NCBI GenBank assembly: GCA_002104935.1
Contig: MCGT01000001.1
Span: 1,381,001 to 1,445,000 of the forward strand
DNA from: Hesseltinella vesiculosa
Taxonomy: Eukaryota > Mucoromycota > Mucoromycetes > Mucorales > Cunninghamellaceae
Length of the DNA stretch: 64,000 nucleotides
Direction: 5' to 3'
The notes under the pieces are model-generated. The model made no database searches. It was not told the origin of the DNA and worked only from the letters and a program-made list of their open reading frames with translations. This document shows, in pieces, positions 1,172-50,230 of this stretch (position 1 is the first letter of the stretch; the number at the start of each line of letters is the position of its first letter). The position numbers and the translations under genes were made by a program.

Positions 1172-4035
1172 TTAGAACCTTTCCAGACGGATGGCGTCTT
1201 GAGGAAGATGGTTAAAAGAGGTTAGGCTGGCTCGAGGAGCCATGAGCTGAGAAACCGTCGGGAACTCGATGCGAGAGATGGGTGGCGGGGAAGGTGTGGT
1301 GGACGCTGTGCTGGGTGACGGTGCGACAAAGGTGCGGTCAAACGTCAGAGAAGTAGGCGGCTGCGTTGGCGACTGTCGTGTCGTTCCTGTGGACGTGTTG
1401 GGCAGCGATCCATGGCGGAGAGACGTGGAAGGATCCACGGGCGAGGTCGACGAAGGCGATACACGCTGGATCAAGGAGGATGCCATCTGCTCCATGCGGT
1501 GCAAGACACGTGTCAGCGTAGGTGATACTGGGCCCAAGTCGTCCTGATGCGTGGTATTGTTTGTGGCCGTGGTGGACGTAGGCGAGGAAGAGGGTGCGCT
1601 GGCTGGAGGAGGGGATGACGAGAATGCTGTGACCAAGGACAAGGGTGAGCCGGCGGCTGGTCTGGCAGGCGGAGAGGATGCCAAGGAGGAAGCGTTCATG
1701 GGGACAGGCATAGCCAGGCTCGTAGAGGAGGTGGCCAGGGGTGGGGATGAGGACGGTGGCGTTGGAGGGCTGTGGCCGCGGCCGAGAGGTGTGAAGTAGC
1801 GTTCCAGGGACTGCTGCTGCAGGGCACTTAATGGCAAGTCGTTGTCGCTATGACCGCGGCGGGTGGTGTTTGGCGCAGCCGCTGCTGACGCAGTTCCTTG
1901 GCGGTGCCACCGAAGGGCTGTGACTTCCATGCGATGGGCACTTTCCAGCGCACAGTCGAGTGAGCAAACAGTGAAGCGGACAGGGACTTGCATGCGGTTA
2001 TTACAGAGCCGTGCGAGATAAGCCACTTGGAAAGGGAACCAGGTGGACCACTGGTGACAGCAGTCGCACTGGCGAGCCTCGTTCAGGATGTGTGAGCGCA
2101 GCAGGCCGGGTATGGTGGCTGGCAGAGCATGGGATAGAAACTGACATTGCAAGCCTGGATCCATGTCTAATCGGCCGGCGAGGAGGTTGTCATGACGTGC
2201 GAAAGCGGTGGCGCCGTCGGGAAGAGGCGGTGATGGCGAAGGCGTGCAAAAGCGGAAGCCTGCGTTTGAATCCAGAGCGGCATGTTTCTGGCTGGTTTGC
2301 GGGGAGCCAAGGACCCAGTCGTAATGGCTCTGCCTCAGGTGCGCCTGCAGAGCTATTGTCTTCAAGGAAAGGACGCTGTGGAGAGACTGGAGCAGGTTGG
2401 GCGTAGCCAGCATGTCGATGGGTGGTGGCGTCAAGGCGGAGAGCAGGCGGGCAGCGGTCTCGTGCAATGTGTCAGAGTCGTGCTGGTTGCTGATCCATTT
2501 CCTTTTGATGCTGCGCTTCCAGTCGGCCGATGACAATTCCAGCGCAGCCGTCATGGGCTGCCAGGTGCGTAGCTGCGTCAACGACACGAGTGGGCACCAC
2601 TCGCCCGTGGCGGCAAGGTAGATGCCGTCCTGGTGCTCCATGTTGTCATTTTCGTAGAGGAGCAAGGTGCGTAGCGAGCCTCCCTTGCCGGCCAAGGCTG
2701 GTGGTGGTGGAGAGCGGTGGCGAGACCGGACCCATTGGTCTTGGATGTGGAACCTCCGAGGCTGAGCATGTTGAAAGGCAAAGGCGGTGGTGGGCACGAT
2801 GAGATGCAGATGCTGATCCAATTCACAGGCCGGAGCAATGGCGAGCAGAGATGGTGGCAGGTACGTCAGCAGGTTCCGCCGCAGGTCGACTTTTTCCAGC
2901 GACTTCATGTTTTGGAACACAAATGGAGGTAAGTGGCGGAGGCGGTTTTGAACGAGGCCGAGTTTGACGAGCTGGTCGAGGTTGGCCATGGAGGCGGGCA
3001 GGGTGGTGAGGCGGTTGTCGTTGAGATTGAACCACTGCAGCTGGCTGACAAGGCCGATGGTGCTGGGTAGGTGGAGGAGATTGTTGATGGCCAGATTGAG
3101 TCTCAGCAAGGGAATGCGGCACTGGTAGATGGTGGTGAACAGCAGCGGTGAGATGCGAGTCAGGCTGCACGTGTGCAGATCGAGGCTGACGAGCTGCTTG
3201 TACCCGTATTTTAAGAAATCCATAGGTAGGCCGCCCAGTGGGTTGCCAGACAGGTGTAGGTGCGTCAATGCCTGGGGTGGGTGGTACACAAGGGTCAGCG
3301 GCAGCTGTTCAAATTCATTGAACGAAAGGTTCAGCGTCTGGATGCTGTTGGGCAGCACCCCCGCCCCGTCGTCCAGCCCCGTCATTCGGTTTTTTTGAAG
3401 CAAAAGCACTTGTAGATTTGGGAGTTGCGAGATCACCGGAGGCATACCTTGGCAGGGACAGGCTGGTGAGCTTTGCCTTTTTTTTTTTTTTTTTTTTTTT
3501 TCATTTTCCACTCTTGGGGTTACCTTGAAAATCATTGCTGGAGAGGTCGAGCCCGCGGAGATTACCACAGCTGGCAAGGTCTGGAGGCAAGCTATTCAAG
3601 TGGTTGTCGCTGAGGGAGAGCCAAGCAAGCTGGTGAAAATGAGGGAACACGTTGACTGGGATGGATGTTAGTTTGTTCCTCGCTAGTGACAATGATGTGA
3701 GGTTGGTCAAGACCAGGATTTCCAACGGAAACTCTGAAAAGAGGTTGTTGCGCAGCGTCAGCTCTTTCAGAGAATGGCGCAATGTGGCAAGGGCCTTTAC
3801 AAAAGGAGCCATGGACGATAGCTGGTTGTTTCGCAGAAGAAGCGAGTGCACGGGTGGTTGGTTGGACTTTCGAAAAAACACGGTGCGAGTAGGCTCGAAA
3901 AGATCGATGTGGTGGGCCAAACTGAAAAGGTAAGAAAAAAAAAAACAGGTGAGCCAAGCTTTTACAAGCGTGAGCAACATACGCCTCACGATGATCGTCT
4001 AGATTGAGCCTTTTTTCATTATCATCCTCATCCAT
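1172..4035 (-). CDS. Leucine-rich-repeat protein with Ser/Pro-rich C-terminal region
   Basis: Three exons (4035-3983, 3921-3524, 3447-1172) give 908 residues in one frame; the first exon is only 53 nt. About ten LRR units with the LxxLxLxxNxLxxLP pattern fill roughly residues 35-330. A middle region carries a Cys-rich patch (CDCC, then CSLDC about 36 residues later) that could bind zinc. The C-terminal 250 residues are low-complexity Ser/Pro/Thr. There is no signal peptide, transmembrane segment, kinase, cyclase or phosphatase domain, so this is probably a cytosolic scaffold rather than a receptor or adenylate cyclase. Intron 2 carries a run of more than 20 A on the coding strand. Substrate and partners cannot be read from sequence. 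Confidence 0.8.
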
Positions 4036-40045: not shown

Positions 40046-43000
40046 ATGAACCAGTCGTCCAGAAAAGGTGGCCGTTCATCCTCTGCTCGAAATGACTTTC
40101 ATCGTGGAACGCAAAACACCGAACAAAGGGCATTATTCAACCCGAATGCAGACCATCCCATCACCTTCAACAAGGATGCACCGCGGCCGACCATGCCGCA
40201 ACGCTCTCAACAGTCTGTAGCACCTATGATGCAGCATCAGCGCAAGCATCCTGACCAAGGCCGTGGCCGTCCTGCTGCCTCTGGCCGCACGTTGTGGGAA
40301 CCGAGCCAGTCTGTCGCAGCACCTGCTCGTCCTCCTGTGTCTTCTACCATTCGTTCCTCGCCACCGGACCCGCACTCAGCGCCATCCTCCCCGCCCACGA
40401 CAGCACGTTCCCCGAAGAAGTCAAGCACCGACCAAGCGGCCGACCAGCACCGACAGCTGCTGAAATCGAAGTGGCAGCAAATCCAACAGCTCGAAGCACA
40501 GGTGGCTCGTCATTGGAAGCTTGCTCAATCCACCACCTACGGGCAAGGCTTGGTGTACCAGCCAAAGGAACAAGATGAGATCTCGCGACATGATGCGGCC
40601 ATGACCAGTGCCACTGACCGGCCGCCACTCGCCCATCCTTGGCTGACCATGCAGCCGTCTGACTGGCAAGCTGCCGATGCCTTTTGGCAAGAAAAGATGG
40701 ACCTGCACTTTAAACTAGCCCGCGCCTTTTTGGAGATGGTGTGCCTGGATTACGACGTTGCCCTGAACAAGAACCTGGAAGGCCTGTGCTGGAAGCACGC
40801 CGTCTACGCCGTGGTGGTACAGCTACGACAAGCCCTGCAACAATGTCATGTTCTAGCCCTCGCGTTTCCTGAAGTGAAGGAAGATGCCGATTTGTCCAAG
40901 GTAACGCTCTCATGACCATGGCCCCCTCCTTAACAACCCGTTTTTTTTTTATCGCAAATTAGTCCAGGACAGTCTCTGCAGACGATATGGATGTTGGGAG
41001 AAGAGATGCTGACGCCGATGCAGATGAGCTCAAAGTAAAAAAAAAAAAAACCAAGATGGTGACAAATGGGAACGCCTATCCAAAAGCATTTGGCTCACCA
41101 CTTTTTTTTTTTTTTTTTTTTTTGCGCGCACGTAGTTGATCAAGTCCGATGAAAAAGACCGAGATGACGGCGTCACTGTGTACTTATTTAACGCTGGGGA
41201 TTTACAAGACGAGGTCGACAAGGACGATGGATCCGATCCCGATGAAGAAGCCATCATGGTTCCGGTGGTGACTGAACATGGGATGACCATGATACCCATG
41301 GCCAACAAGAAAAAAGAACACCCCGGCACCTTGCGAGCTTCAGAGAAGGCTTGGTCCCACAGACAAGTTTATGACCAGCACTGTCAATGGATGGCGACGT
41401 TTTTGGAACGAGCTGTTGTGTTTTACCAAGGATGGATGGCTGCCCTGTTCCGCTTGGATGGCCTTGATCTCAAGACAATGGATAGCCGGTTGCAGCTTTG
41501 GCAGCGTCGCCAGCGATGGAAATGGTTCAATGCTGTATTTTATCGATGTGACTTGGCACGGTACCAGTTTTTGCATGCCGATCGGAACGCCCCTGGCCAT
41601 ACCAAGGCTGCCGCTTGGCATTTGTTTGGTGCATGGCTCATGCCATCCTCTGGCCGCCTGTATGCGCAGCTTGCACTGCTATGCAGCAAGCAACAGACTG
41701 CAACCAAGACGGACCCCGCGCTCCACCTCCCTTTGCCTACCAAGCACATGCATCAAGTCTATTTCGCCACTCGGGCGCTGATGGTGCGACGCAATGCTGT
41801 GGCCAGCGCGCGTGAACACATGCTGGAACTCTTGGAGCAAAACCGCCAATGGCACGATCGCCACCTGTCTCCCTCAGCATCCGCTGGCAGCCGGAAAAAG
41901 GCGAAAAAGGCGAGCCAAGCGCTTCAACGACCGGTCGGATGCAGTGACAGCGACTGGGCTGTGGGCTTGTTTTTGCGACTGCATGGCTTGCTTTTCACGA
42001 AAATTGGTCTCGACGCCTTTGGCCAGGTGAAGACCGAGTTCTTGGCCCATCTCTTCCATGACAGCAAAGGTGAGCCCAGGCTTGAGCGCGGACAGCAAGA
42101 CGCAGCGCAAACGCCAGCCTTTGGCGGACAAGCGTGGTTCTGGATGGAAGCCCTGGTGTTGACGGTGTCTGCCGTGTACCAATACAACTATAGCACATCG
42201 ACGGTCAGCAAGAGCCTACAGGCGCCTTGGTCGGACGCCAACGATGAATTAATCCGCGACACGGTGGACAATATCATGGTGCAATATGCTCTGGATCTGC
42301 TGATGGACATGGTCCTGACGGTGCTGACCCGCCGGCCTGGTCTTGAAACGAGCCCTTGCTTGGCCCCGTTGGCTGCAGGTGACCAGGCGGTTGGTTTTTC
42401 GCTGCTCCGCGAGGCTTCGCTTGTCTTTGGCTCGTCTTTGGAACCCAACCGCACTGACATTGGCGATACTGAACATAGCGAACAGCACTCACCGCCCTGG
42501 CAGGATGACTCCGATACATCTCTTATCTTCCTTGGTCTGTTCTTGCAATGGATGGTGATGACAGGGATTGGGATCCGGCGCCGGCAGGGCTGCGCAAGCG
42601 CTTGGGAACAATGGACTGGGCACCGACCGCCCCGAGCCATGGCACGCTGGTGGCATGCCTGGATGCCTTTGCTCAATGAGCTCCTGCACAGCTTGGAGCC
42701 CGACGAACGCCATGCCCTGGTCCAACATCATATCCTTTCTGCTTCTTGGACGGATTCGGACGACTGGACCGAGGACCACTGGCAGCTTGTGCTAGATACC
42801 CTTGGGCCTCAGCCGCTGTTACCTGAAGACGATTATGTGCGTGGCTGTGGCTGGGTCGACGACTTTTTCCTCAAGCGATCACCTGCCTCTGTACCGATGG
42901 ACAATCCAATGGCTGCGTTGCCCCACCAACGACTTGTCCGGCTCCTCCACTATGCATTTCTACTCGTCAAGGTAGCATCCCAAAAAAAAAAAAAAAAAAA

Positions 43001-48424: not shown

Positions 48425-48580
48425 GAAAGACACGGTCCAAAAAAAAAAAATCATCTGTCCAAAAAAATGGACCAGATGAATTGAAGACAAGGATCTGGTC
48501 CAATCAGACAAAGCCCTGGCCCAAAAAAAAATCATCTGGTCCAAAAAAATGGACCTGGTCCAAAAAAATCATCTAGTCTT
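48425..48580. repeat. Cluster of direct and inverted GGTCC-A-run repeats
   Basis: Five to six copies of GGTCC/GTCC followed by an A run are interleaved with ATGGACCAGATGA and its complement TCATCTGGTCCA. Two arms (TCCAAAAAAATGGACC) are near-repeats. TCATCTGGTCCA at about 48531-48542 pairs with TGGACCAGATGA at about 48468-48479. The cluster ends only about 5 bp before the start of the recombinase-like gene. Confidence 0.8.
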
Positions 48581-48584
48581 AAAA

Positions 48585-49942
48585 ATGATAATAACTAGAG
48601 AGCAAGCACTGTGCATGCTATTTTGCGAAGTGTACAATGACGAAAACGTGAAAAAATTGGACGCCAAATTGAAGGACATGGGAGAGGTGGTGATTTGTTA
48701 TATAAATGATGATCCCAAGGAACCAGTTATACTACCGATTCGAAAACAAAGCTCCAACCCATTCAAGTACCATCCATACCCTCTCGAGAACGACAAAACA
48801 GATAAATTGGAAGGACAAAATGATTGCATCAACGAGTCCTTACTGGGTAATTAAAAAAGAGAAAATAGGATTTCAAAGTGCTAATAGCTTACAATAGTCA
48901 CAGATACAATGATCAAAGCTTTTCTTAACAAAGTTTTTCTGCCTGACGAACCATTCAATGACAATTATCGAAAAAAGCTTATGACGATGCCCAGTATAAT
49001 GGAAACATTGTCCAGGTACACCGTGAAATTTGACGAAAAAAGCAGTATTGCATTTGCCAAGTGGTGTGAAAAGGCAAAAGTCTCATTCATGAACGCGGAA
49101 GTGACAAGAAAAACTGGAAAAAGCACTTTTGGTTCGAAGATCCGATATCGAACGCTTTTTGTCCTGAAAGACGAGCTCGTTGGTAAGTGACAACGCTGTG
49201 CCAGTGCAGTTTGTTAGAGAGAGAAAAAAAAAGCGCATTCAACAAAAGGCTGTTTACATGTTTCTATAGACGATGTAGCCAAAGGCATAAAGGATTATAT
49301 ACCAAACTACCAAGCCCATATAACAAAGTTGAAGGAAGATGGATTCCAAATCATCGGGTACTGCAGAAAATCTAGGACAGGCGAAGACAATGATACCAGA
49401 ATAAGGCTGCTGCAGGACATGATTAATCAACTTCAACAAAGATCCTTGGTTGACAAGGTATTCGTGTCACCTTGTTCATCTGCTGGTGAAAATCTTAATG
49501 CCAGGGATGCTCAATCTGAATTTGACATGCACCAACTCCAGAATACCTCCGGCAATACTCAAGGTAAGAAGTCCATGGAAAGACATTGCTCAAATCTAAT
49601 AGTTTATTATTAGCTTTAATTTCCTACCTGGCTATGACAAAAAAAGTATGCATGGTTGTGATTGATTATGCTGGCCTAACCACAAATGCCAGAGATTTGA
49701 AAGAATGGTTAAGGTAATCCAATTCTAGTTAATATGCACACTTTTAACCAACATGGCTAATCCTTTTGTACAGTGCTAATCCAAATCTGGAGAATATTAT
49801 TGTCGACCAACTTCCCATTCAACATGAAATCAAGATTTTCAACCGTGCCCAGCTTCTTAATGATGCTAAAACTCTGGAACTGTTCAATTGCCGCAAGGGA
49901 TGTATACCAAGAGCCAAATGTTTATTGGAAAATCATGAATGA
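48585..49942 (+). CDS. Lineage-specific protein with C-terminal serine-recombinase-like domain
   Basis: Five exons (48585-48846, 48904-49182, 49270-49563, 49614-49713, 49774-49942) give 367 residues with every junction in frame. Domain 1 (about residues 1-70) contains EQALCMLFCEVYNDENV and ICYINDDPKEPVILPIR and has a paralogue at 49988-50230. Domain 2 (about 90-180) is unknown: FLPDEPFNDNYRKKLMTMPS ... KSTFGSKIRYRTLFVLKDELV. Domain 3 (about 205-312) resembles the resolvase catalytic fold: IIGYCRKSRTGEDNDTRIRLL (Y-x-R-x-S, S215), VDKVFVSPCSSAGENLNARD, and VCMVVIDYAGLTTNARDLKEW in place of the DRLGR strand-helix. The catalytic Arg pair of DRLGR is not conserved (DYAGL), so it may be inactive or repurposed. 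No DNA-binding C-terminal domain is obvious. Confidence 0.75.
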
Positions 49943-49987
49943 TATGTAGGCCAAAAAAAATAAATAAAGAAGGAAGGATGCAAGTTA

Positions 49988-50230
49988 TCAGCTATTGTTA
50001 TTGTTTGTTTTACTTCGCTTATCCATGGAAAGAGACGCATACATACGATACTTCGATGAATTTATGGCTATTGTACGAATTGGGATTAAAATAGGTTCGG
50101 TTGGATCATTAAAATAGCAGACATCTAATTCCATTTCATCTAAACGCTTTCCAAGGTGCATCACATTCTCATCATTATACTCTTCGCAAAACACCATACA
50201 AATGGCTTGTTCTTTCGTGACTTTTTTCAT
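49988..50230 (-). CDS. Stand-alone paralogue of the N-terminal domain of the recombinase-like gene
   Basis: A single 80-residue frame in inverted orientation, 45 bp from the stop of the neighbouring gene. It begins MKKVTKEQAICMVFCEEYND and continues ENVMHLGKRLDEMELDVCYF, then NDPTEPILIPIR. This is clearly homologous to the first 60-70 residues of the gene at 48585. It ends in a low-complexity KTNNNNS tail with a proper stop. The two copies differ at many silent sites, so the duplication is not recent and the protein sequence seems to have been kept. It may be a truncated copy or a functional single-domain partner. Confidence 0.65.
   Translation of the reverse strand: MKKVTKEQAICMVFCEEYNDENVMHLGKRLDEMELDVCYFNDPTEPILIPIRTIAINSSKYRMYASLSMDKRSKTNNNNS

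Follow-up and report, generated by a model that had tools for sequence, protein, structure and literature searches.

The window analyzed here is a 64,000-nucleotide stretch of the Hesseltinella vesiculosa genome (contig C1, positions 1,381,001 to 1,445,000; the genome comprises 27.05 Mb in 85 contigs). At 48425 to 50230 it holds a compact unit of three parts: a five-exon gene whose product ends in a domain with the predicted catalytic fold of serine recombinases (the main gene), a small convergent gene for a stand-alone copy of the first domain of that product (the mini), and an array of short repeats directly 5′ of the main gene. The predicted fold carries an R-x-S motif, the gene pair recurs in the genome, mostly private and phased arrays lie near the start codons of the family, main and mini share a tract over codons 1–47 at several loci, and both genes are present in a second genus. 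We consider it an evenly balanced possibility that these loci form a Mucorales family of recombinase-derived units whose main protein would bind the array beside its own gene.

The gene pair of the window

Starting from the ATG at 48585, GT-AG parsing left 24 splice combinations open, with products of 357 to 381 amino acids that include 367-residue forms. The public Hesseltinella vesiculosa protein P0001 has 369 amino acids and is 99% identical to the main gene product, differing in an intron-1 acceptor 6 nt earlier. The five-exon gene proposed in an earlier note on this DNA is supported. The features of the unit are as follows.

48425..48584, plus strand: short-repeat array immediately 5′ of the main gene, TGGTCCA plus A-tract at intervals of 19–21 bp, with inversion of some units
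48585..49942, plus strand: main gene, domains D1-D2-D3, 367 or 369 amino acids, five exons (splice parsing, P0001; Halteromyces protein P0002)
48585–48846, 48904–49182 (or 48898–49182), 49270–49563, 49614–49713 and 49774–49942, plus strand: exons of the main gene
48585..48794, plus strand: domain 1 (D1), residues 1–70, two helices and a beta hairpin (predicted structure)
48903..49337, plus strand: domain 2 (D2) and long linker helix, about residues 90–205, split by intron 2 (secondary structure only)
49344..49900, plus strand: domain 3 (D3), about residues 208–356, predicted serine-recombinase catalytic fold, split by introns 3 and 4 (structure prediction)
49365..49373, plus strand: codons of R215-K216-S217, R-x-S motif (sequence, structural and family alignment)
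49988..50230, minus strand: convergent companion gene (mini), 80 amino acids, stand-alone domain 1 (intact open reading frame, Halteromyces protein P0044)

Structure prediction of domain 3, a check set beforehand, gave a resolvase-type, serine-recombinase catalytic fold rather than an unrelated one, and structural alignment agreed. The alignment with 2rsl starts at model residue 208 and chain residue 1, and S217 would fall at residue 10 of the chain if the alignment is gapless. The R-x-S motif lies at the end of strand 1, with the arginine in 40 of 40 family members and the serine in 38 of 40. A second pair, R261-D262, is almost invariant across 41 members. The order of helices and strands in domain 2, as predicted from secondary structure, is compatible with a winged helix. 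No convincing PDB match for domain 1 was found in a search with the companion's D1 model. The companion itself, described earlier as a convergent 80-residue paralogue of domain 1, has an intact open reading frame and is matched by the main protein at 48% in a six-frame genome search.

Sequence searches placed the family less clearly. UniRef names one member "Resolvase/invertase-t...", and scans of 41 members against Pfam, NCBIfam and PHROGs gave weak, scattered matches in at most three members each, among the 25 families shown per library. PDB sequence searches returned nothing relevant. Prokaryotic (GTDB genomes) and viral (IMG/VR) homologues were sought with a single peptide pattern each, which makes for weak negatives: 8 and 2 pattern stretches were found, respectively, and none was confirmed.

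Recurrence of the unit in the genome

The six-frame search at E ≤1 gave 130 family matches, which were grouped into 65 dispersed clusters; these counts are lower bounds. Domain 3 is present in 51 clusters, of which 20 also have their own domain 1 and 31 have none detected. Thirteen of the 20 have an extra stand-alone domain 1, that is, a mini, which is convergent in ten, divergent in two and tandem in one. A 300-bp rule had given nine, three and one, and the pair on C27 (mini 268739–268933, plus; gene 268950–269432, minus) was reassigned as convergent. In cluster C37 a convergent mini is present but no domain 1 of the cluster's own was detected; a remnant lies at C9:8.8 kb. Among the 12 minis taken into a frame check, which left out that of L056, 11 have an intact frame of 73–80 residues, and the remnant frame at C9:9 kb runs to 116. 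Stops interrupt some family copies. Sequence was examined for the fetched loci; the remaining clusters of the 65 are known by their match coordinates.

Several of the fetched loci have features of their own. L041, L042, L044, L046 and L051 contain domain-3 genes without a detected domain 1, with frames of about 400 codons in L041, L042 and L044. Arrays of 20-bp spacing lie between two domain-3 genes in L041 and 3′ of the gene, up to the contig end, in L044. A perfect 1,064-bp inverted repeat (L036, 1–1064 and 4538–5601) surrounds one family unit and may extend past the fetched end. The copy at L045 (C12:113500–119000) 2333–3136 is degenerate, with domain 1 and the end of domain 2 plus domain 3 in different, overlapping frames; an overlapping frame with a Fanzor/TnpB-like zinc-ribbon end then follows, possibly as chance debris. 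The TnpB/Fanzor zinc-ribbon family has 89 genome matches at E ≤0.01, and in a comparison by eye one of them (C12:116411) lies within 200 bp of a family cluster, a degenerate copy.

Repeat arrays

At the window locus, six exact GGTCC/GGACC words occur within 128 bp (48434–48561), whereas no other 128-bp stretch of the window has more than three and none of 200 first-order Markov sequences more than four. Single-stranded DNA folding of 48425–48600 gave z = −4.4. The earlier note had described a dense cluster of inverted repeats ending about 5 bp before the start codon. The density holds, but the cluster is mainly a direct array in which only some units are inverted; the ATG lies 23 bp beyond the end of the last exact GGTCC, and only a degenerate unit, ATCTAGTC, reaches within 6 bp of it. 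As a tandem repeat the cluster is weak, with a Tandem Repeats Finder score of 69–78, under the threshold of 80 applied to the family. The 200-bp repeat stretch has no other genome match in a search that skips simple and very common words. The window as a whole is poorer in GGTCC than its shuffled versions: it has 77 copies, the shuffles average 97, and 99 of the 100 shuffles reach 77 or more.

A check on whether GGTCC repeats accompany other family members came out negative: most copies have a motif of their own, and the window's TGGTCCAA is abundant at only one other fetched locus, L036. GGTCC was rejected as a family-wide motif, GGTCC-N5-GGACC being found at 7 genome places compared with 21 for the reversed control.

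Arrays were examined in Hesseltinella DNA alone, in 20 widely fetched family loci (136.7 kb) and 12 control pieces (64 kb: eight window segments and four other loci), at a period of at least 7 and a score of at least 80. Tandem repeats covered 13.7% of the family loci and 0% of the controls, with arrays in 15 of 20 loci and in none of the 12 control pieces, which at a lower threshold gave one short 15-bp array of score 60. Inverted repeats were found in 10 of 20 loci and in no control piece. In 11 of the 20 loci the commonest 10-mer is present 14–204 times and in the other nine 2–8 times, against at most three times in eight control segments. Most motifs are private: 10 of 12 occur no more than three times at any other fetched locus (L055, a duplicate of L054, aside). 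Two were searched genome-wide. All 34 places of the TGAACCGGTTCA pair lie within C10:353.3–354.6 kb, in an array that ends 20 bp before a mini ATG. Triples of TGGTCCAA number 44, with 40 at L036, none at the window, and four at C27:17.5 kb, where the unit is 28 bp and the six-frame search found no family match nearby.

The arrays also favor one side of the genes. An array of score at least 60 lies within 550 bp on the 5′ side of 15 of 30 D1 start codons and within 550 bp on the 3′ side of three; this census covers 17 fetched loci and the window, with two of the 15 coming from the duplicate L055 and the starts of L056–L060 estimated. The main spacing is 9–12 or 20–22 bp in 14 of 16 hand-picked array stretches: 9 in L038 and L056; 10 in L039a and both arms of L050; 11 in L036 and L048; 12 in L049 and both arms of L054; 20 in L041 and L044; 21 in L058; and 21/22 in L039b. 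The outliers are L052, at 53, and the window, with lags of 41, 21 and 19 and none dominant. Periods of 61, 62, 116 and 127 bp, among others, occur in some family-locus arrays. In L052 (1161–2686) the repeat unit takes in part of the mini's first codons, as if the array had grown from the start-codon region.

While most arrays are direct repeats, those of L050 and L054/L055 are inverted around the gene pair. L050 has 104 plus-strand units on the left and 100 minus-strand units on the right, and L054 has 8 on the left and 15 on the right. The inverted arms measure 622 bp at 94.7% identity in L054 and 405 bp at 96.3% in L055.

A tract shared by main and mini genes

In five of nine main/mini pairs (L037, L039a, L048, L049, L052), the two D1 copies are 82–99% identical in DNA over codons 1–47 and 33–54% identical over codons 48–70. 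The pairs of L036, L050, L054 and the window have no such tract. Over codons 1–47, the best match of each of those five minis is the main gene of its own locus. Over codons 48–72, with the L048 remnant excluded, it is another mini for eight of ten minis and a main gene for two, at identities of 36–52% between short sequences. Two Gilbertella persicaria proteins, each on a contig of 740,518 bp, are identical in D1 at 48 of 48 positions and then at 4 of 24. The simplest account would be an old pair of paralogues in which gene conversion acted on the first half of domain 1 and was stopped, or selected against, near codon 47. The Gilbertella persicaria proteins P0054 and P0056 also share an odd FLRGIQRRYV where P0045 has FCEEYNEDNV, which looks like a common compensating frame-shift pair.

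Relatives and age of the window copy

Halteromyces protein P0002 is 78% identical to the main protein over 95%, and the mini relative P0044 is 73% identical to the mini over 79 residues, from the same start methionine to near the C-terminus. In Halteromyces radiatus the two relatives are each on a contig of 942,607 bp; they may lie adjacent on one contig. In that case the pair would be older than the divergence of the two genera, an argument for a function. The window's domain-3 core groups with Halteromyces, Rhizomucor, Syncephalastrum and Apophysomyces proteins (FastTree support 0.96), and no other of the 23 Hesseltinella cores in the tree falls within that clade; the tree covers the fetched loci, not all 51 domain-3 clusters. 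The window's member of the family was probably inherited vertically and has a short, weak array.

No Rfam match was found in the window, and a candidate tRNA-Ala gene (anticodon ggc) lies at 40561–40642 on the minus strand.

Comparison with known systems

As described in passages of PMC6188088, IS1535 of the IS607 family has four 9-bp, helically phased direct repeats that are bound cooperatively by its serine transposase, and different IS607 elements have ends unrelated in sequence. The resemblance of the family arrays to these repeats is close. Like IS607 TnpA, as far as those passages describe it, the family protein has its catalytic domain on the C-terminal side (predicted fold 208–356 of 369) and goes with element-specific short direct repeats, which in the family are not present at every locus. 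Unlike IS607, the family has introns, two N-terminal domains, of which domain 1 has no convincing PDB match, and a D1 gene as companion where IS607 elements often carry TnpB/Fanzor. Its arrays reach about 200 units, some copies (L050, L054, L055) have long inverted arms, and it has neither the DRxxR arginines nor a resolvase-model match. IS607 elements have no terminal inverted repeats, from which the arms would depart if they are element ends.

Compared to Sin, gamma-delta, TP901-1 and Gin, domain 3 is 10–18% identical to their catalytic domains in structural alignments. Only about 13 residues follow the catalytic fold, so there is no C-terminal DNA-binding domain, and the two catalytic arginines of resolvases/invertases and large serine recombinases are missing. 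Foldback elements have long inverted arms built of short tandem repeats, as do L050 and L054/L055; in the family such arms occur in only some copies, the repeat differs per locus, and the protein is a different one. The yeast Saccharomyces kluyveri, which belongs to another fungal phylum than the Mucorales, has acquired IS607-type serine recombinases. According to passages of PMC2715888, these are likewise fungal, present in several copies and under selection, whereas they are recognizably IS607, at 27–31% identity to the most similar bacterial proteins, and those passages mention no companion gene or arrays.

Alternative explanations

Several results weigh against the proposal that the main protein is recombinase-derived and binds its array. 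Foldseek gave no match below E 0.001 (best, E 0.027), a genome search with the Pfam resolvase model PF00239 found no match, and no resolvase family is among the best 25 of the 44 Pfam families matching the 41 members. The DRxxR arginines (R68 and R71 of gamma-delta) are replaced in the family by D-Y/F-A-G-L/F-T-T-N (DYAGLTTN), so that catalysis may be lost or changed. No array reached score 80 in five of the 20 wide loci (L040, L043, L045, L051, L053), and of five loci with narrower flanks, L056 and L058 have an array and three (L057, L059, L060) have none. The control DNA is small (64 kb). Two of the 12 locus motifs are common to two loci: TGGTCCAA (5 times in the window, 49 in L036) and CTTGCCCAC (32 in L044, 36 in L039). 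The commonest 10-mer of the window locus occurs three times, as in the controls, so this locus alone does not stand above them. An unselected automatic test of 37 arrays found helical spacing in 12 of 16 near D1 starts compared with 7 of 21 others (p = 0.014, duplicates counted), and scored the window array (18–19) and that of L049 as not helical. Finally, 7 of the 20 clusters with domain 3 and their own domain 1 have no mini. Neither refuting condition set in the earlier note, an unrelated fold for domain 3 or homologues that consistently lack both the paralogue and the repeats, was borne out, since 13 of those 20 clusters have a mini and 15 of the 20 wide loci have arrays; the note's reading is supported, with the amendments given here.

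It is possible, if somewhat doubtful, that the proteins are self-regulated factors that bind DNA and have retained nothing else from a recombinase ancestor, with the array as an operator and no cutting. The arrays near start codons, the missing DRxxR arginines and a mini made of D1 alone would all fit, whereas the near invariance of R-x-S and R261-D262 across 41 members is more than a scaffold should need, and the inverted arms at both ends of some loci also speak against it. We regard it as unlikely that the units are mobile elements of an IS607-like or foldback-like kind, old and for the most part no longer moving, in which the arrays would be transposon ends, the main protein the transposase, the mini a repressor, and most copies decaying. 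The 65 dispersed clusters, the 31 of 51 without a detected own domain 1, the inverted arms around the gene pair in L050, L054 and L055, the stops within some copies and one duplicate pair (C6/C26, 98% over 5 kb) all point that way. This module (L054 2341–5241 and L055 2302–5205) is bounded by inverted ends, a TA followed by CAGTTATTTC and, at the other side, GAAATAACTG followed by TA. However, these ends (CAGT...ACTG within flanking TA) abut Tc1/mariner-like sequence, with frames identified by eye, so the spread may be via mariner-type ends. C33 matches the left flank of L055 at 100% as far as the TA; a simple insertion there was rejected, since the C33 continuation (a 26-bp pattern) occurs once in the genome, and no clean empty site is thus available. 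Besides C6/C26, the fetched loci contain only partial close pairs (L037/L045, 86% over 367 bp; tandem copies at 84% within L041; the two parts of L048 at 90%), so recent copies are few, and both window genes are present in another genus. Both the operator and the mobile-element version overlap with the array-binding proposal, since they have array recognition in common with it and differ from it in outcome, so our estimates do not sum to one.

We also consider it unlikely that the arrays are ordinary minisatellites of gene-poor DNA, placed by chance next to a fast-evolving gene family, with protein and repeats unrelated. The small control region, the other periods in some family-locus arrays and the phased-looking array at C27:17.5 kb, where no family match was found, would suit such an origin. 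On the other hand, the 5′-side bias (15 against 3 of 30 D1 starts), the mostly private motifs and their spacing, the inversion on two sides in L050 and L054, and the absence of arrays at score 80 from the control pieces argue against it.

Proposed mechanism and meaning

In the array-binding proposal, the window locus would belong to a Mucorales family of units. Its main gene would encode a serine-recombinase-derived protein with DNA-binding parts N-terminal to the catalytic fold, and the small inverted gene, found at most loci that keep a complete main gene, would be a stand-alone copy of domain 1. The repeats beside the start codons, short and mostly in helical phase, are putative binding sites of the unit's own protein. 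From these features we infer array binding, catalysis and a role for the mini: several main-protein dimers may bind along the array cooperatively, as IS607 transposase does on subterminal repeats, and the protein may then either recombine or rearrange the unit's ends where arrays face each other or control its own promoter. The mini, which has the first half of domain 1 in common with the main protein, may act as its partner or its competitor.

A stronger version, which we think unlikely to hold, is a eukaryotic self-recognizing site-specific recombination system. Each copy would have evolved a recognition sequence of its own, multiplied in helical phase by its start codons, and a protein co-evolved with it, and recombination between the inverted halves would keep the first half of D1 alike and the second half different. 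The genome would then hold dozens of recombinase/site pairs insulated from one another.

As far as the parts of the literature consulted describe them, serine recombinases in eukaryotes are IS607-type imports in a few lineages. Among the papers searched, none had both "serine recombinase" and Mucoromycota, a search for resolvase and Mucorales turned up only a topoisomerase review, among the parts of records consulted, and no description of this family was found among the titles and abstract beginnings searched. If the proposal is true, the family would provide many natural protein/site pairs for studying the evolution of recombinase specificity and a possible source of orthogonal DNA-binding or recombination tools. 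It would also offer a clear example of sequence exchange within a locus whose end point is fixed and falls inside a protein domain.
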